From an uncultured Cytophagales bacterium (GTDB taxonomy: Bacteria > Bacteroidota > Bacteroidia > Cytophagales > Thermoflexibacteraceae): DNA of 64,000 nt. Below the pieces are notes generated by a model that had not been told where the DNA came from, did no database searches, and worked only from the letters and a program-made list of their open reading frames with translations. A program made the position numbers and the translations under genes. The stretch is taken from positions 1 through 64,000 of the forward strand of contig CALHUI010000011.1 in assembly GCA_938039675.1 (NCBI GenBank), in the 5' to 3' direction. Below, in pieces: positions 22,537 through 49,204 of this stretch (positions are counted from its first letter, which is position 1; each line of letters opens with the position of its first letter).

Positions 22537-23131
22537 CTAAAACATAAGGCGTTGTACGGTTTTGATTTCCTCCGTAGTAATGGTATGTGGCATAGCAGGA
22601 TAAACAATGTGTATAACCAAAGCCCCCGTGCTTTCCATCAGCTGCGCTGAGGCTTCGGAGCACTCAGCAGGCACTTGCGGGTCGAAGTCGCTGTTGCCAA
22701 TGAAAACAGGTATGCCATTAGAGTTTCCGCTGTATTCTTCGGGTTTCAGCACCTCAACAATTAAGCCACCCATAAAGGCCGCTACGCCTGTATATTGTTG
22801 CGCAAATTGGGCGACTACTTCCAAACCCGGGCAAGCCTCTTGCGAAAAGCCTGTAATGTAGATGTTTTCGGAAGAAATTTGTACGCTTATTTGGTCTATC
22901 AGCAGCTTTACCGTTGCCACTGCCGATAGCGCAACCAAGGCTCATTTTGCGACTCGGGTGTCAGAAAGCCGTAAGGATACCATGTGTGGTTAGTAGCCTG
23001 TGGTGCTGCTATGTAGAAACTATCGTCGCAAAACGTATCGGCAAGACCGATGCGCGTCCATGCAATAAAACAATAGCCTTTGCTGCCTGATGCAGCGATT
23101 TGCCTTTTTCAAGAATTTGATGGTTGTGCAT
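22537..23131 (-). pseudogene. decayed phospholipase/carboxylesterase-type alpha/beta hydrolase
   Basis: Reading minus from the ATG at 23129-23131, three frames are needed. Frame A gives an N-terminus with IVLLHGR (strand plus oxyanion HGxG), then shifts near 23050-23060. Frame B carries DSFYIAAPQATNHTWYPYG and LTPESQNEPW, then shifts near 22925-22945. Frame C (to 22537) carries ITGFSQEACPG, the Asp in GNSDFDPQVP and the His in AMPHTITTEE. In the family the nucleophile elbow is GFSQGA; here the second Gly is Glu, and about seven residues after HGR appear deleted. Two shifts, a deletion and an active-site change point to true decay. Confidence 0.8.
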
Positions 23132-39813: not shown

Positions 39814-40605
39814 CTACCGCAAAGCAGCCACGAATTGTTGTATATCTGTTTCCAAGTCGGTGCTCTGGCTCAGCAGATTGATAAAGGCACTGCCGATAAT
39901 TGCACCTTCTGCGTAGCGACAAGCTCCCTCAAAGGTCGCTTTGTCCGAAATACCAAAACCAATAAGTTTGGGGCTTTTGAGTTGCATGGCAGCTATGCGC
40001 TCAAAATAGCGGCATTGCTCGTCCGAAAAGCCTTGTTTAGCACCGGTTGTGCTGGCCGACGACACCATGTAAATAAAACTTTCTTGCGAAAGTTCGTCTA
40101 TTCGGCGGATGCGTTCCTCTGCTGTTTGCGGCGTAATGAGGAAGATATTAAACAGGCCGTAGCGCTCAAACACAGGTTTGTACTCGCTCAGATATTCGTG
40201 CATGGGCAAATCGGGCAAAATAAGTCCGTCAATGCCGACTTGTTGCGCAGCATAGCAGAAATTTTCAACACCAAACTGAATCACGGGATTCAGGTAGCCC
40301 ATCAGCAGCAACGGTACGTCCGTATATTGGCGGATGTCTTTCAGTTGCTCAAAAAGCAACCGCAAGCTCATCCCATTGTCAAGTGCCTGCTGGCTGCTTT
40401 GCTGAATAGTAGGGCCGTCAGCCAGCGGGTCAGAAAAAGGCATTCCTATTTCAATCATATCTACTCCCGCAGCCGAAAGCGCTCGGATGATGCGCACGGT
40501 GTCTTGCAATTGAGGAAAACCGGCTGTAAAATAAATATTCAAAATGTTGCGCTTAGCAGCGAACAGCAATTGAAGCCGATGGGTAACAGTTTGAGTGTTT
40601 TGCAT
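39814..40605 (-). CDS. trpA: tryptophan synthase alpha subunit
   Basis: 263 residues from the ATG at 40603-40605; an open extension upstream lacks family similarity. TrpA splits indole-3-glycerol phosphate to indole, passed to TrpB. Catalytic Glu in DMIEIGMPFSDPLADGP (about 48) and Asp in GLILPDLPMHE (about 130) are visible, and the phosphate loop VSSASTTGAK (about 180) and GFGISDKATF are present. The other trp genes are not in the window. A downstream dnaJ-like gene converges on it. Confidence 0.95.
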   Translation of the reverse strand: MQNTQTVTHRLQLLFAAKRNILNIYFTAGFPQLQDTVRIIRALSAAGVDMIEIGMPFSDPLADGPTIQQSSQQALDNGMSLRLLFEQLKDIRQYTDVPLLLMGYLNPVIQFGVENFCYAAQQVGIDGLILPDLPMHEYLSEYKPVFERYGLFNIFLITPQTAEERIRRIDELSQESFIYMVSSASTTGAKQGFSDEQCRYFERIAAMQLKSPKLIGFGISDKATFEGACRYAEGAIIGSAFINLLSQSTDLETDIQQFVAALR

Positions 40606-40662
40606 AGCACAAATGTAAGCAAACTTCCAACTACAAATGCGCAAAAGTATGCCGACAAGAAC

Positions 40663-40691
40663 TTGCAAAAAAAGAAAGCATAGTATTTTTA
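40663..40691 (+). promoter_or_regulatory. candidate Bacteroidota-type promoter of the second subtilase
   Basis: TTG at 40663-40665, 18 bp, then TATTTTTA at 40684-40691, close to the Bacteroidota -33 TTG / -7 TAnnTTTG pattern except for the last base. The first ATG follows at 40717. Confidence 0.35.
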
Positions 40692-40716
40692 CATCCGAAA
40701 TAAAATCTACGTATAA

Positions 40717-43128
40717 ATGATGAACCTAAACTATCTTAAAGCGCTACGTATAATCGCTTTTTGGCTTATAAGCAGTTGCTTATAAGCGCAAATTCCGTCT
40801 AATTTAATGAGGACAACAGGCATTAGCGGTAAATCCGGTAATGTACAGAATGCTCTCAATGCAAGAGCAGCCTTGTTAGCACACAATCGCTCTGACCTCC
40901 TTAAAATAGAGAATGGTCGTGTGCTGATTAATGCTGTGGCAACTACCCACACAGACTCTCTCCGTGCTCAACTTGTACGAGCAGGATTTGTTGAAACAGG
41001 TGTAGAAGGACGCATGGTTTCAGGCTTTTTGCCTATAGCTAACGTTGCTCAGCTCGATAATATGAGCTTCCTGCTAGAAGCACGTGCCGTTTTTGCAAAG
41101 AGCAACAACAGTCCAATTAGCCAGGCGGTACAGGCACAGGCAGTAAATATTGCTCGCGAGCGCTACGGCTTGACAGGTAAAGGAGTAAAAGTAGGTGTTC
41201 TTTCAGATAGCTACAATAATCTTGGCGGCGAGGCAGCCGGCATAGCAACAGGCAATCTGCCGGGACCCGGTAATCCTAACGGTAAAACAACACCTGTACA
41301 AGTTTTAAAAGACTTGTCATCTGGTGGTTCTGATGAGGGAAGAGCAATGTTAGAACTCATACACGATATTGTTCCTGATGCTGAATTGGCTTTTGCCACA
41401 GCATTCAGCGGTGATGCAGGCTTTGCACAAAATATTAGGAACTTACATTTTCAGGCAAAATGTGATGTCATTGTAGATGATGTCTCCTATTTCTTACAAC
41501 CATTTTTTCAGCAAGGTATTATTGCTCAGGCTGCTGATGCCGTAGCAGGTGTGGGTTCTATTTACCTATCTTCTGCCGGTAACTTTGGTGGTAATTCGGG
41601 ATATGGTTATGAATCACCTTTTAAACCATCAGGTGTTACAGCTACCGTGAGTGGAGTCATTTATGAGTTGCATAATTTTGCAACAGCTCCGACCGTAGAA
41701 CTATTCCAACAACTTTCTATTCCTCCTTTTGGATTTAACGATATTATCTTGCAATGGGATGAGCCTTTTGCATCAGTTTGTCCCGGATGCCCCGGTGCGA
41801 GAAACAATGTTGACCTATTAATAACAACGTTGTCAGGTCCGACTCCTATTTTTACAGCAGTAAATCTTTCTACAATTGGTGGCGATGCAGTTGATTACTA
41901 TTATTTAGACAATTATTCAACTACTACTCCTATCGTTGTAGGTTTGGTGCTGGGTTACGAAAAAATACCCGGTACACCTACACCGGGTTATGTAAAATAT
42001 GTTGGTTTTTCTAGTGGATTCGGTAGTAGCTCTTTGCTTACTTACACGGTTAATCAAACAGGTAGCGGTACAATGATGGGCAATAACTCAACTTTGGTTA
42101 ATGGATTTACCATTGCAGCAGCACCATTTTTTAAAACACCTGCTTTCGGGGTAAATCCTCCCGTATTAGAGAACTTCTCTTCACGTGGCCGAATAGGTGG
42201 AACGCCCCTTTTCTTTGATACACAAGGAAAAAGGCTTTCTGAACCACTTATTTTATATAAGCCTGATATGACAGGAATTGACGGTGTAAATACCTCGTTT
42301 TTTGGGAACGATAGTCCGGAAGATTCTGATATATTCCCTAACTTCTTCGGAACCTCAGCTGCTGCACCTAATGTAGCTGCTGTTGTCGCAATGATGATTG
42401 AAGCAAACGGAGGAAGGATGAATCCTGCCATTGTACGTCAGATTTTACAAAGCACGTCCATTGATATGGATGATGACCGTACAGCTGTTTTTGATAGAGG
42501 TTTTGACTTTGCGTCTGGTTCTGGTCTGATTAATGCAGCTGCTGCTATAGATGCTATGCCTTTTGGTTCACCAACCAATCTGCGCGGTCGTCCGGGTAGC
42601 GGTAGTGTAGAATTGACGTGGACACTGGCTCCGGGCAAACTGGTTGTTCGTTATGAAATTTATGCCGTTGCATCTGTTGGCAACCCCATTGAAACACTTG
42701 TTGGTACAACAACCGAATCAAATTTTACAGTAAACAACCTAATTAACGGCACTACTTATTCTTTTCGTGTACGCGGGGTAACAGGTAATGGCCGCTTTAC
42801 TGCTTACACAAACCGCATAGATTTGCGTCCTTCAATTATTTTGGCTACGGAAGTTGATGTAAACGCTGTACCTAAGACGACATTCAACGTATATCCTAAC
42901 CCAAGCAAAGGAACTTTTAACATTTATTTCCGCGAAACTATGGCGGGTAACACTGTAAAAATCAGTTTATCTAATGCTGCGGGTCAGGAAATATTTAATA
43001 AGCAAGTAAATTATCCGGGAAGTGTGGAGGACACAATTGATACTGTAGGTTTACCAAGTGGTGTTTACATCTTATGTATTGAGACCGAAAAAGGTGTTCA
43101 TCGACGCAAAATCAGCATCATTCAATAA
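40717..43128 (+). pseudogene. secreted S8-type serine peptidase with FnIII and T9SS sorting domain, signal peptide interrupted by a stop codon
   Basis: From ATG 40717 the frame encodes a signal-peptide-like MMNLNYLKALRIIAFWLISS then C, L, a TAA (40783-40785) and, in the same frame, AQIPSNLM and the rest of the protein, so one nonsense codon separates signal and mature parts. The part from the ATG at 40807 is 773 residues: Asp in VGVLSDSYNN, Asn in SSAGNFGG, Ser in FGTSAAAPNVAA; at the subtilisin His place the sequence is DEGRAMLELIHD, with Glu. A fibronectin-III-like domain (about 595-675) and a sorting domain (FNVYPNPSKGTF onward, about 690-773) follow. Without the signal the product would stay in the cytoplasm. 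Codons look AT-richer than in neighbours. Confidence 0.8.
40764..40787. repeat. 24-bp perfect palindrome over the interrupting stop codon
   Basis: GCTTATAAGCA (40764-40774), 2-nt centre, TGCTTATAAGC (40777-40787). The same ten bases GCTTATAAGC are therefore also a direct repeat with 4-bp spacing. The premature TAA at 40783-40785 lies within the second arm. Confidence 0.7.
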
Positions 43129-43157
43129 TTTCAAATCTTAAATAGAAAATAAATCTT

Positions 43158-43594
43158 ATGAAAAAGCATATTTACATATTGTTTGTCGTGTTTTCGGTTG
43201 TGCTATCCATAACAGGTTGCACTACTAACACCGGCAGCGATAACATCAATGTATTACTACAAATCTTATCCAAACAAGGTGGGGAACATGGCGTGTAAAT
43301 AGCGCTACTTTTGGCGATGAGGAAGCCCCATTTAGCATGTTTGCCGATTATCGCATTACTTTCCGTCCTGACGGTACTTATCAGGTAGTGAACCCTGCTG
43401 GCGCACCTTCTTTCACTCGTAATGCTACTGGTACTTTTACTGTATCTAATCGTTTGCTTAACTTCGATGGCGGTGCAACTATTGCCAGAGAAATAAGTGT
43501 AGGCACTTTAAATCCTAACAGGCTTATGTTTGAGTTTGATGTAGTACTGCCCGGGAAGTCTGCTACAACTTACCGTTTTGAGCTTGTAAGATAA
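43158..43594 (+). pseudogene. small lipoprotein (lipocalin-like), frameshifted
   Basis: The ATG at 43158 begins a lipoprotein signal: MKKHIYILFVVFSVVLSITGC (Cys at 21), then TTNTGSDNINVLLQIL, then leaves frame and stops at 43297-43299. A second frame, open from 43244 to 43594, encodes WGTWRVNSATF, an ADYRITFRPDGTY segment and YRFELVR, the strand pattern of small lipocalin-like proteins. A shift of one base lost (or two gained) between 43244 and about 43282 joins them to about 145 residues. It lies 29 bp after the damaged subtilase and before a strong terminator, so the two were probably one transcript. Its role is unknown. Confidence 0.7.
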
Positions 43595-43615
43595 GATTAA
43601 CTTCCATAAAAAGTA

Positions 43616-43661
43616 AAACAATATAGGCTGTTCCCAGAGTTGGAAATAGCCTATATTGTTT
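43616..43661. terminator. terminator before the CHAT protein gene
   Basis: Perfect 14-bp stem AAACAATATAGGCT (43616-43629) / AGCCTATATTGTTT (43648-43661) with an inner TTCC/GGAA pairing (43631-43634 and 43642-43645), followed by TAATTTTAAT. It separates the lipoprotein from the CHAT gene, which begins 30 bp further. Confidence 0.8.
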
Positions 43662-43690
43662 AATTTTAATACATAAAATTATTTTTTTAC

Positions 43691-46600
43691 ATGGTCCGTA
43701 TAGCTGTTTACTTACTCCTGTTGTTGTTCCACTACAACCTGCTTGCTCAATCTGCCGAGAAAACCTATGCCACTCTTGCTGTATGCGAGCAATACTATGA
43801 CGACGGCGACTACGAAAAAGCACTTGAAAAGTGTGAAAAACTAATAAGAAACCTCAAACAAGGTTCTTACGGGCAAGCAGTAGCCTACTCGCTGCCTTAT
43901 TTGGCAAAATATCAGGAAGCAATGGGGCAATACCTGAACTTTGAGCGCACCATTCAGGAAATACTGAACCTGCGCCTGATTAACGGCGATAAAAGCCGCA
44001 GCTATGGGCTTGGGTTGCTCCATGCCGCCACTGCTTACGCTGAGTACGGCTATGCCAATCGGGCAGAAGAATATCTCGGCAAAGTACAGGCATTATTTGC
44101 CAATGAGAAAAGTCCGCTCATCAGGGCAGAGATGCTGCATACCGGCATTCGCATTGCCGTGCTTCGGCAAGACTTTGCAGCGTTTCAGCAGCAAATCGGC
44201 AATGCATTGAAAGCACAAGAGGCAATACTGGTCAATGAAGAAACCTATTTCGACGAAATTGAACGTGCAGAAAAAACAAGAGCGGTAAATGCCATAGAAC
44301 TCCGCCGCCGCAAAAATCAATATGCCGAACTACTGAACACTTGGGGGGACATGCTGCGGCAGGCAGGCAGGTATGGCGATGCAGGCAATAAATTGTCGGA
44401 AGCCGAAAACTGGATTCGCAGCAACCTCAGCACGCGCGATGCGGCAATGATTATCAACAGGCACTTTCAGAATCTGCTCAATTTAGATATGGGCGGCAAC
44501 AATAAAGAGTCGCTGCAAAAGCAGTTAGACCGCCATATTTTCACGGCCGAAAAGCGCTTTACCCCTGTACACAAAACCTATCTGGCGATTCATGAAACCC
44601 TGATAGACAACTACATAGAAAGCAAATTTATCCGCCGAAGCAGCAAACAGCGCTGGGAGTTGCGGCAAAATACGCTCAAATACTACGGGCGCGACAAAAT
44701 GCCCTATGCCATCTCGCAGCGATTAGACGCGCGAACCGCCTATAAGTTTCAGAATTACCGTGAAGCACAAGAACTGCTGAACGATGCACTGAAATTGCCC
44801 GAAAAAGTGCCTGTAGAGCATCAGGAGTACCGCAAACTAATGCAACAGGCCTATGAACTTGCCCTTGCAACCGACAATTTGGGCAAGGCAGAGGCTTACC
44901 TACAGGCACATATAGCAAGTGCGGAGAAGGCATTGGGGAAAAATTCGCTGCCCTATCATTATGCCCGCATGAGGCTGGCTAATTATTATGCCGCTTTTAC
45001 CAATCGCTTCAGCACTACCGACAGCATTATCCGCGAGAGCTATCACGGCTTTATCAGCAAAAAAATTGCACCGGAACACAAAGACAGGGTAGATTTTCTG
45101 AACAATATTGCTACGTATTACCAAATGACGGGCCGTTACGATTCGGCTTTGGTACAACTCAATCAAGCGGTGGGAATTGCCAAAAAACGCTTTGGTGAAA
45201 ACAATGTCAGCTATGCAGTTGAATTGCAGAAATTGGTTAAAGTGCAGATGCAGCAAGGGCGCTTTGCCGACGCAGACAAAAACATCACCCGCATTCTGGA
45301 TATTTTCAAAAAAGCCTATAACCGCACGTTGAATCTGGAATACTCGCAGGCATTGGAAACGGCAGCATCTTATTACGCCACAATGGGGCTATTCAACGAT
45401 GCGAGGGGTGCCCTGCTGCGCGCCGACCGCCTGTTTCAGCGTTCCAACAGTTCTATTGCAAGCTCTACTGCTATTGACGATTTGGCAGGGCTTTACATTG
45501 CCATGGAACGTTTTACCCAAACTGAACGCCTGCTGAATGATGCCATTGAGGTGCGCCGCACCCGCTACGGTGAAAACAATCGTTTCCTGATAAATCCGTA
45601 CAACCAATTGGCACGGCTCTATCTGGCAACAGGCGACTACGTAAAAGCCGATGACTTCGCAGCCAAAGCCTTCAAGCTGGCTTCTGAAACTTTTGGTGAC
45701 AGTTCGACGATAACTTCCGAAATAGCTGAAACACAGGTACTTATTCAAGCTGCCATCGGCGACTACGAAAAAGCAATTGCCGAAATTCTGCGCGTGCGAC
45801 AAATAAAAGAGCGCAATTTCGGGCGTAACAATATTGCTGTAGCCAATTTGTTGCGGCAAGAAGGCCTCATTCGCTATTTCGGCAAAGAACCTCCGCAAAC
45901 CTTGGAGCAGCTTTTTAACGAATCGCGGCAAATTATCGCCCGCAATTTGGGCAGCCGCAACCCCGTTTATGCCGATGCGCTGAAAGACCTCGCGCTGATT
46001 TATACCGAAAGCAATCAACCCACACAGGCTTTGCAGTTGTTAGACAGTGCCAATCGCATTTGGAACAGTATCCTGAAAACAGGTAACAATACCAATGCGG
46101 CAGAGATAGCTATACTCAAAGGCAATGTTTACACCCGTGTGGGCAATTTTGGCAATGCTGACAAACATTACAAAAGCGCCATGCGCATACTGGCCAAAAT
46201 TCTCAGCACAAAGCATCCTCTGTACGTACAGGCACAGGCGCAACATGCCCGCATGTTCTTTGCACAGAAAAATTATGCACAGGCACAGAAAATTATGGAA
46301 AGCGTACTGGCAGGCTATCGGCAGTACATCACAACCTTTTTCCCTGTGCTGAGCGACCGCGAAAAAACCAAGTACTGGGGACTGGTACGCGCCGACTATG
46401 AGTTTTACAACAACTTGCTGGTGCGTCGCCTGCCCGACAATCCCGCGCTGGCAGGCATACTTTATGACAACGCCACATTTGCCAAGTCTCTTTTGGTAAG
46501 CAATGCGGGCAAGCTGCGCAATCTGATTATGAACTCCAACGATTCGGCTACCGTACGCCGCTACCGCGAGTGGATAGACAAAAAGCATTTGCTCACCAAA

Positions 46601-47908
46601 GCACTTGCCTATTCGCCGCAGCAGTTGCAGGAAGCAGGCATTGATTTGCGCAAACTGCAAAAAGAAATTGACGATTTGGATAAAAATCTGAGTCGGCGCT
46701 CCAAAGTATTTATAGAAGCAAGGCAATTGCAAATCCGCCGCTGGCAGGAAGTAGCGGCACAGTTGCAGACGGGAGAAGCAGCAGTTGAAATTATTCGCTA
46801 CCCTTACTACGACAAGGGTTTTACCGATTCGGTCGTATATGCAGCCCTTGTATTGCTCTATGGTGAAAAAACTGCACCGAAGTTTATTCCTATTGCCAAT
46901 GGTAATGCACTGGAAGACACTTATTTAAAGATATATCGCAATTCGGTGAAGTTTGGGCTCACCGACCGGCTTTCCCATAAGCGCTATTGGGAAGCAGTAG
47001 ATAAAGCCCTTACCGATGCAAAGAAAGTTTACTTGTCGGTAGAAGGAGTTTACAATCAAGTGAACGTGGAGGCATTGCTTGTCGCAGACGATACCTATGT
47101 AATAGACCGCCGTGAAATAGTTTTACTCACCGCTACAACCGATTTACTAGAGCAAAACCGACAAACCACTGCCTCAACCAACAGTTTTGTATTTTTTGGC
47201 AACCCTGTTTTCTATAAAGACCTGCAACCGGAAGAGTATTTGGGCACACGCAACAGAAAAATTCCGCAATTGCCCGGTGCATTCAACGAAGTGAAAAATC
47301 TGACCCAACTTATTGGCAAGGGCAATCTGTCTATCCGCGAATTTGTACTGACGGAAGCCACCGAAGAACAGGTAAAACAACTGCAAAGCCCGCGTGTACT
47401 CCACATTGCCACCCATGGTTTTTTTGAGCCCGATTTAGCAATCAATCTCTCCGACAATGAACTGAGCAGCAGGCAAACCATAAATAACCCGCTATTGCGT
47501 TCAGGGCTGCTGCTGCGTAACGGCGGCGATTTGGTCGCTACCGAAAATGTATATGCCTACAACAAAGAAGAAGGCATTTTGACAGCCTATGAAGCAATGG
47601 ACTTGGTGCTGGAAAATACGGAGTTGGTAGTGTTAAGTGCCTGCGAAACAGGGCGGGGCGATACTCGAATCGGGGAAGGGGTTTATGGTTTACAACGTGC
47701 GTTTCGCGTGGCGGGAGCCAAAAGCCTGATTATGAGTTTATTCAAGGTAGATGATGTAGCCACGCAGCGTTTGATGGAGTTGTTCTACGCCCGCTGGTTA
47801 CAAAACGGTGATAAACGCGAGGCTTTTACCTATGCCAAAAAAGAATTGCGCAAAGAATATCCTTCACCCAAATTCTGGGGAGCGTTTATCATGGTCGGGG
47901 CAGAGTAA
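43691..47908 (+). CDS. secreted TPR-CHAT protein (caspase-like peptidase domain)
   Basis: 1405 residues. A signal peptide (VRIAVYLLLLLFHYNLLAQ) directs export. About residues 25-880 are tandem TPR helices (YYDDGDYEKALEKCEKL and many more), a protein-interaction scaffold; a helical region (about 890-1060) leads to a C-terminal CHAT domain (about 1110-1405). The catalytic dyad of the caspase clan is present: His1242 in HIATHGFF and Cys1318 in LSACETG, with the family end SPKFWGAFIMVG. CHAT proteases cleave partner proteins, e.g. in gasdermin-linked or CRISPR-linked defence, but those are cytoplasmic; this one is predicted extracytoplasmic, and no gasdermin gene is nearby. The target is unknown. 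Confidence 0.9.
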   Translation: MVRIAVYLLLLLFHYNLLAQSAEKTYATLAVCEQYYDDGDYEKALEKCEKLIRNLKQGSYGQAVAYSLPYLAKYQEAMGQYLNFERTIQEILNLRLINGDKSRSYGLGLLHAATAYAEYGYANRAEEYLGKVQALFANEKSPLIRAEMLHTGIRIAVLRQDFAAFQQQIGNALKAQEAILVNEETYFDEIERAEKTRAVNAIELRRRKNQYAELLNTWGDMLRQAGRYGDAGNKLSEAENWIRSNLSTRDAAMIINRHFQNLLNLDMGGNNKESLQKQLDRHIFTAEKRFTPVHKTYLAIHETLIDNYIESKFIRRSSKQRWELRQNTLKYYGRDKMPYAISQRLDARTAYKFQNYREAQELLNDALKLPEKVPVEHQEYRKLMQQAYELALATDNLGKAEAYLQAHIASAEKALGKNSLPYHYARMRLANYYAAFTNRFSTTDSIIRESYHGFISKKIAPEHKDRVDFLNNIATYYQMTGRYDSALVQLNQAVGIAKKRFGENNVSYAVELQKLVKVQMQQGRFADADKNITRILDIFKKAYNRTLNLEYSQALETAASYYATMGLFNDARGALLRADRLFQRSNSSIASSTAIDDLAGLYIAMERFTQTERLLNDAIEVRRTRYGENNRFLINPYNQLARLYLATGDYVKADDFAAKAFKLASETFGDSSTITSEIAETQVLIQAAIGDYEKAIAEILRVRQIKERNFGRNNIAVANLLRQEGLIRYFGKEPPQTLEQLFNESRQIIARNLGSRNPVYADALKDLALIYTESNQPTQALQLLDSANRIWNSILKTGNNTNAAEIAILKGNVYTRVGNFGNADKHYKSAMRILAKILSTKHPLYVQAQAQHARMFFAQKNYAQAQKIMESVLAGYRQYITTFFPVLSDREKTKYWGLVRADYEFYNNLLVRRLPDNPALAGILYDNATFAKSLLVSNAGKLRNLIMNSNDSATVRRYREWIDKKHLLTKALAYSPQQLQEAGIDLRKLQKEIDDLDKNLSRRSKVFIEARQLQIRRWQEVAAQLQTGEAAVEIIRYPYYDKGFTDSVVYAALVLLYGEKTAPKFIPIANGNALEDTYLKIYRNSVKFGLTDRLSHKRYWEAVDKALTDAKKVYLSVEGVYNQVNVEALLVADDTYVIDRREIVLLTATTDLLEQNRQTTASTNSFVFFGNPVFYKDLQPEEYLGTRNRKIPQLPGAFNEVKNLTQLIGKGNLSIREFVLTEATEEQVKQLQSPRVLHIATHGFFEPDLAINLSDNELSSRQTINNPLLRSGLLLRNGGDLVATENVYAYNKEEGILTAYEAMDLVLENTELVVLSACETGRGDTRIGEGVYGLQRAFRVAGAKSLIMSLFKVDDVATQRLMELFYARWLQNGDKREAFTYAKKELRKEYPSPKFWGAFIMVGAE

Positions 47909-47932
47909 TGCAATCGTCTTGCGAGATGGCCG

Positions 47933-49171
47933 TCAGGTCAATACAACAGCCTGTGGCCTGCGAATCAGCAAGGCGCAAAGGACGGCGGAAACACTTACGC
48001 CAATGAGTATGTGAATGCCCGTCAAATAGTTCCCCTGCATGGTGCGCAGTGTACCGAGCAGGTAAATGCCCGCACTGCCTGCCAAAGTATCCATGGTTGT
48101 TACTACCCCCAAAATTTTACCGAAGTTTTTGCCTGCATAATACTCAGCAACCGTAAGTTGAACCATTGTGAATGCGCCACTGTAACCAAGACCGTAAATA
48201 ATAGCAAAAAGCGGCAAAAAAATATCGCTGTTGTAAGGAATGAAACGCATCAGTACAGAGCCTATGGTCATATTGACCACTGCTGCCACAAGGATGCTTT
48301 TTTTAGAGAAGCGGTCGCTAAGCGCACCAAAAACGAGCTTGCCCGCAATGCTGCAAATGAAAAACAGACTAAGCGCATTGGCAGTTTGTGTATCGTTTAA
48401 ACCCACATCGCGCATGAAAAGGGCAAAGTTTTGCACTATGCCCGTAATACAGAAAAATACGGCAGCCGTTACATATAACACCAAGTAAAACATAGAATTG
48501 CCAAGCGCATCAGCAAGCGTAGGGTTGCCGGCATCAGATGAGGCAACAACATCCGTATCTGCAACGAAGGGTGTACTTTGCCCGTCGGGTATCGTATTTT
48601 TTTCCGCAGGTCGGTTGCGCACAAGCAGCAGCGGCACAACGGCCAGCAATACAGCTACCGCAGCCAATATCAATGCGGTTTTTTGCCAGCCGTTGGCTTG
48701 CGTTAAAGCAGCAATCAGTTGCGGGAAAACAATCCCTCCCAAACTGGAACCGACTAAGTAAATGCCTACGGCAATTCCACGGTAGCGATTGAACCAGTAA
48801 GACAGCAACGTAACGCCTGCGATAGCACCTCCCAGCGTAATGGAGGCCGCACACAGCACATAAATACCCACCAAATGCCAAGGTTCGGTTATGTAAGGAT
48901 ACAGGAACAGCGCAAGAACAGTCAGCAGGCTGCCTACGCCCATCATCAGACGCGGCCCGAACCTGTCTACCAACGCGCCGGCAAAAGGGGACACAATAGC
49001 AACAACGAAATACAGAACAGAAGGCCCACGTGTAACTTGTTCGTGCGTCCAGCCAAAAATTTCTTTGAGTGATACATTGAGTAGCGGCAGCCCGTTTACG
49101 CCAATGGTAACTACTGCAAAAATGATAAAGGCACTTGCCAGCACAAGCCAGCCATAGAAGAGTGATTTCAT
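47933..49171 (-). CDS. MFS transporter, oxalate/formate antiporter (OFA)-like
   Basis: 412 residues from the ATG at 49169-49171; two further in-frame Met codons lie upstream (49177 and 49189). Twelve hydrophobic segments in two six-helix bundles are separated by a polar cytoplasmic loop (about 190-225, VRNRPAEKNTIPDGQ). The motif-A-like loop GALVDRFGPRLMMGVG between helices 2 and 3 and GALSDRFSKKSILV in the second half are typical MFS signatures. The arrangement resembles monocarboxylate/oxalate-formate exchangers, but the substrate is unknown. It converges with the CHAT gene with 24 bp between. Confidence 0.88.
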   Translation of the reverse strand: MKSLFYGWLVLASAFIIFAVVTIGVNGLPLLNVSLKEIFGWTHEQVTRGPSVLYFVVAIVSPFAGALVDRFGPRLMMGVGSLLTVLALFLYPYITEPWHLVGIYVLCAASITLGGAIAGVTLLSYWFNRYRGIAVGIYLVGSSLGGIVFPQLIAALTQANGWQKTALILAAVAVLLAVVPLLLVRNRPAEKNTIPDGQSTPFVADTDVVASSDAGNPTLADALGNSMFYLVLYVTAAVFFCITGIVQNFALFMRDVGLNDTQTANALSLFFICSIAGKLVFGALSDRFSKKSILVAAVVNMTIGSVLMRFIPYNSDIFLPLFAIIYGLGYSGAFTMVQLTVAEYYAGKNFGKILGVVTTMDTLAGSAGIYLLGTLRTMQGNYLTGIHILIGVSVSAVLCALLIRRPQAVVLT

Positions 49172-49204
49172 TTTCATTATTTTGAGCAATTAATATAAAC
49201 AAAA

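Follow-up and report, generated by a model that had tools for sequence, protein, structure and literature searches.

In-frame stop in the signal peptide of a T9SS-type subtilase and frameshift in the adjacent lipoprotein gene: probable recent loss of a two-gene unit in an uncultured Cytophagales bacterium

Effectors of the T9SS carry an N-terminal Sec signal peptide for reaching the periplasm (PMC10202324, in excerpt). The protease described here shares with the S8 subtilases bearing a T9SS type-A sorting domain all four of the domain models and the catalytic-type motifs, but differs from such cargo in having a stop codon between the signal peptide and the body of the protein. It shares with bacterial pseudogenes arising by nonsense mutation a single stop in an otherwise open frame, an intact relative and a partner gene that is broken too, but the absence of decay in the body would make the event a recent one. 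Genes suspected of readthrough likewise show one stop in a constrained frame, but the survey that described them relied on stops common to at least two species (PMC7918605), whereas the only orthologue found here has none. Besides, template switching in Escherichia coli renders imperfect inverted repeats more perfect, and the stop reported below likewise lies in an arm of an imperfect repeat, as in the quasipalindrome-associated mutations attributed to this process (PMC7202029, in excerpt), although a plain point mutation accounts for it as well. Among the literature matches listed, seen as excerpts, no case was found of a premature stop in the signal peptide of a T9SS subtilisin from Cytophaga.

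The stretch analysed, hereafter the window, comprises the first 64,000 nucleotides of contig CALHUI010000011.1, and the same-genus genome that carries the orthologue (G002) is referred to as the sister. The features of the locus are as follows.

40717-40785, plus strand: signal-peptide frame, ended by TAA after 22 codons; start conserved in the sister
40764-40787, no strand assigned: imperfect inverted repeat (22/24) in which a perfect 10-bp palindrome is present twice in direct orientation; hairpin predicted by RNA folding
40783-40785, plus strand: in-frame TAA, located in the repeat's 3' arm; the sister has a tyrosine codon here
40807-43128, plus strand: S8 subtilase body, including the fn3 domain and the T9SS type-A sorting domain; the longest open reading frame, 773 aa, starts at ATG 40807
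43158-43298, plus strand: 5' part of the lipoprotein gene, ended by TAA 43296-43298 after 46 codons
43278-43284, plus strand: G-rich stretch where the lipoprotein frame breaks relative to the sister in the alignment
43285-43594, plus strand: remainder of the lipoprotein gene in a different frame; 74% identity to the sister over 111 residues (match 43259-43591)
43616-43661, plus strand: strong stem-loop 3' of the lipoprotein gene, likely the end of the unit (-27.5 kcal/mol, z -7.57)

The frame opened by ATG 40717 encodes MMNLNYLKALRIIAFWLISSCL (22 codons), meets TAA at 40783-40785 and then continues in the same frame as the protease for 780 codons up to its stop codon, TAA 43126-43128. The first-pass annotation, which had described a signal peptide, a single TAA and a complete protease in one frame, was thus borne out by translation, and the start is found again in the sister. 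The signal peptide was called from the hydropathy of the leader, rather than by a dedicated predictor, with a best 11-residue mean of 2.34 in the window and 1.67 in the sister. At its C-terminus, the truncated peptide of 22 residues carries ISSCL, a sequence similar to a lipobox; the sister has no cysteine there. Within the body, the models PF00082, PF00041, PF18962 and TIGR04183 all exceeded their curated cut-offs. For the S8 model PF00082, the score was 32.1 bits (cut-off 21.8) and the best stretch covered only residues 510-573 of the 773-aa open reading frame, while the C-terminal sorting domain scored 48.9 bits with PF18962 (cut-off 27) and 43.6 bits with TIGR04183 (cut-off 23). The motifs SDSYN, ELIHD, SSAGN and GTSA, presumably those of the predicted catalytic Asp, His and Ser and of the oxyanion Asn, are present in both the window and the sister. 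Among solved chains, Mirolase gave the best sequence match, a weak one (E 7.7e-5). A SprA_N domain was detected in an open 2585-aa frame of the same genome (sprA, T9SS translocon), so that the T9SS pathway seems to be present in this organism. No second full-length copy of the protease was found in the genome, its other three matches being C-terminal.

Comparison with an orthologue had been proposed as a check on the stop, and it was informative. Out of four genomes of the genus, its own included, only this one and the sister carry the orthologue (79% identity), and in 13 genomes of the family the remaining protease matches were C-terminal only. A search of genome contigs placed the gene at a single locus, JANWVT010000009.1 (MAG Bernardetiaceae bacterium SKYG123), which was taken to be the sister contig G002:C107. 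There, the protease lies in the same genomic place, starts with MMNLNY as in the window and runs for 797 codons without interruption; its signal peptide is as long as that of the window, and a tyrosine stands at the position of the TAA. Hence, the Sec signal peptide is joined to the body in the sister and split from it in the window. The flanking genes, trpA upstream and a TPR-CHAT gene downstream of the pair, showed no stop in their window matches to the sister. The TPR-CHAT protein (43691-47908, 1405 aa) is intact, begins with a hydrophobic, signal-peptide-like N-terminus and lies downstream of the pair in the sister too. Gene order appears to be much reshuffled within the genus, since collinearity between the window and the initial 80 kb of the sister contig is confined to the block 39842-49203 (about 9.4 kb); outside it, a single match of 1.1 kb was listed.

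The stop lies in a repeat that had been described as a perfect 24-bp palindrome and also a direct repeat. The direct repeat was confirmed: the sequence GCTTATAAGC, a perfect 10-bp palindrome, occurs at 40764-40773 and again at 40778-40787. The larger palindrome is imperfect, as only 22 of the 24 positions agree between the element and its reverse complement; the outer 11 bases on each side pair and the two central bases do not. A repeat-finding tool reported arms of 16 nt with 88% complementarity at this element. The window contains one such 24-mer, where 100 simulations under a first-order Markov model gave 0.03 per 64 kb on average; this comparison was chosen only once the element had been seen. 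RNA folding of the 41 nt at 40755-40795 gave -16.1 kcal/mol (z -4.07). An origin of the direct repeat by tandem duplication was disfavoured, since 22 codons precede the stop position in the window and in the sister alike.

The rarity of the element and its stable predicted fold would fit a regulatory hairpin controlling the protease gene, with the stop as its part. This reading is, however, extremely improbable: the hairpin does not form in the sister, whose frame is open and whose equivalent stretch folds at -7.9 kcal/mol into another shape, and the 141-nt leader surrounding the element is no more stably folded than shuffled versions of it (z -0.54). Nor is the 10-mer enriched, with six sites in the genome (two of them in the element itself) against four for a reversed control pattern, and 2, 7 and 1 against 3, 4 and 0 in three other genomes of the genus. 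A genomic repeat or a regulator site was rejected on the same grounds, the 10-mer being rare across the four genomes searched. As for the origin of the stop, the imperfect inverted repeat may have given rise to it through a template-switch mutation. This is plausible, though less likely than not and a weaker inference than the loss itself: the TAA sits in one arm, and the signal peptide of the sister is too different to show the prior state.

The body of the protease was then examined for signs of decay. Its dN between window and sister was 0.168, the sixth highest among 31 genes (range 0.031-0.245) that are a hand-picked subset of the window-sister matches, and its identity was 0.78, compared with a median of 0.835 for these genes. 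The dN/dS ratio was unusable for the last step, dS being undefined (saturated) for the protease and for other genes among the 31. Polarization relied on 19 S8 relatives with 30-43% identity by blastp, which are not necessarily orthologues, drawn from the 20 of 395 genomes of the class with a match, its own included. With the closest outgroup, 12 changes were assigned to the window only and 18 to the sister only. Over all 19 outgroups, the direction of the rate difference varied (smallest p 0.22), and the window was evolving no faster than the sister. Similarly, of 121 columns conserved in at least 90% of the outgroups, one deviates in the window alone and two in the sister alone. No relaxation of constraint was seen with these 19 outgroups, nor any further stop over the 780 codons. 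Because the body is clean and not evolving faster, the stop would be young, or false, or the gene still used. If the protease were free of selection, the absence of a second stop would bound the age of the event at about 0.04 substitutions per site; after a recent loss, neither further lesions nor decay of the body would be expected.

The gene following the protease turned out to be interrupted as well, a frameshift that the first-pass annotation made no mention of and that is new here. The start at 43158 is followed by a lipoprotein-type signal (judged by eye), and the sister gene is open over 145 codons from an ATG matching that of the window. Lipoprotein Pfam matches were to DUF5004 and Lipocalin_4, both below cut-offs, and relatives were limited, besides the two pieces of the window itself, to weak matches in two of 295 genomes of the class. 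The protease and lipoprotein genes are separated by 29 bases in the window, compared with 30 in the sister, and both genomes have a stem-loop 3' of the second gene (-22 kcal/mol, z -5.55 in the sister); because of this arrangement, the two genes probably form one transcription unit. The terminator scan listed the sister stem-loop as terminator-like, and that of the window at 43616-43661 was not listed, the scans of the window having given nothing informative at the unit.

The background rate of broken genes was then estimated from a census of the open frames of the sister against the window plus the 40 kb that follow on its contig (104 kb in total), which yielded 72 distinct matched frames and is blind to breaks outside the matched stretches. 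Nine of the 72 rows were flagged, of which three were judged broken (the frames at 22540 and 40717 and the lipoprotein row) and six were dropped on inspection. In five of the latter (21087, 81946, 85120, 97404 and 98986), the stop lay near one end of the match, either by the likely start or within the last residues, 98986 being the least clear; the sixth (78586), a match of 94 residues with stops close to either end, was taken as a non-gene. The third broken gene, encoding an Abhydrolase_2 protein (phospholipase/carboxylesterase; 22540-23131, minus strand), is open in the sister and spread over three frames in the window, with a 19-base gap and a 2-base insertion relative to the sister; as judged from the alignment, it is a pseudogene with two lesions. 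Two of the three broken frames are the adjacent protease-lipoprotein pair. With three broken among 72, the chance of at least one adjacent pair is 0.08, so that this clustering is suggestive, not strong. Since only three of the 72 frames are broken, the assembly is not break-rich, and the genome has at least one gene with pseudogene-like lesions.

These numbers bear on the possibility that the TAA at the hairpin and the G-rich frameshift are both consensus errors of sequencing or assembly, both genes being whole in the cell. The clean, normally constrained protease body would agree with it, as would the hairpin at the site of the TAA and the G run at that of the frameshift. It would, however, require two independent errors within one unit, in an assembly where only three of the 72 matched frames were judged broken and the third of these carries indels of 19 and 2 bases. 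We therefore regard such an error as unlikely, albeit less so than any of the other alternatives to gene loss.

A further alternative is that the protease is still made, either by readthrough of the TAA or by a restart at ATG 40807, giving a form without signal peptide. In its favor, the body is clean and constrained, the first in-frame ATG (40807) lies only 22 bases 3' of the stop, the base directly after the TAA is a G, a context associated with reduced termination accuracy in E. coli (PMC11126739, in excerpt), and in-frame stops have been described as widespread among bacterial genes under constraint (PMC7918605, in excerpt). Against it, TAA leaked less than the other stops when tested with reporters in E. 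coli (PMC11126739, in excerpt) and is the commonest stop here, terminating 20 of the 36 open reading frames of the window taken as genes (TAG 11, TGA 5), which also led us to reject a general reassignment of this codon. In addition, the stop is absent from the orthologue in the sister, the only one found, no ATG of the sister aligns with ATG 40807, a restart form would not be exported, and a broken partner gene better matches loss. Continued production is thus quite improbable. Combining it with the hairpin, the TAA might act as a lineage-specific switch, the protease being off unless readthrough or restart at 40807 yields a conditional or cytoplasmic form; this is more improbable still.

Taken together, a unit encoding a T9SS-secreted S8 subtilase and a small lipoprotein has probably been inactivated recently in this lineage, and ordinary recent gene loss is our best reading of the sequence. 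Ribosomes starting at ATG 40717 would halt after 22 codons, and a protein begun at ATG 40807 would be devoid of the Sec signal needed by T9SS cargo; the secreted protease would be lost on both counts. Loss is supported by the intact copy in the sister, the frameshifted partner and the open flanking genes, while the clean body is equally compatible with a recent loss, an error and continued use of the gene and, as such, weighs against it. Of the three explanations initially offered for the stop, the pseudogene is therefore the best supported, by the intact sister and the broken partner, readthrough is disfavoured, and an assembly error keeps the low probability given above. Because the partner gene is broken too, the case for loss is better supported than it was from the data of the first-pass annotation.

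This case shows how a single in-frame stop can be assessed in the absence of reads, from an intact relative, the fate of the partner gene and the surrounding rate of breaks. For annotation, the 773-aa open reading frame starting at 40807 should not be called a secreted, working protease. If the template-switch origin is true, the stop would represent a natural loss-of-function mutation produced at a local inverted repeat.
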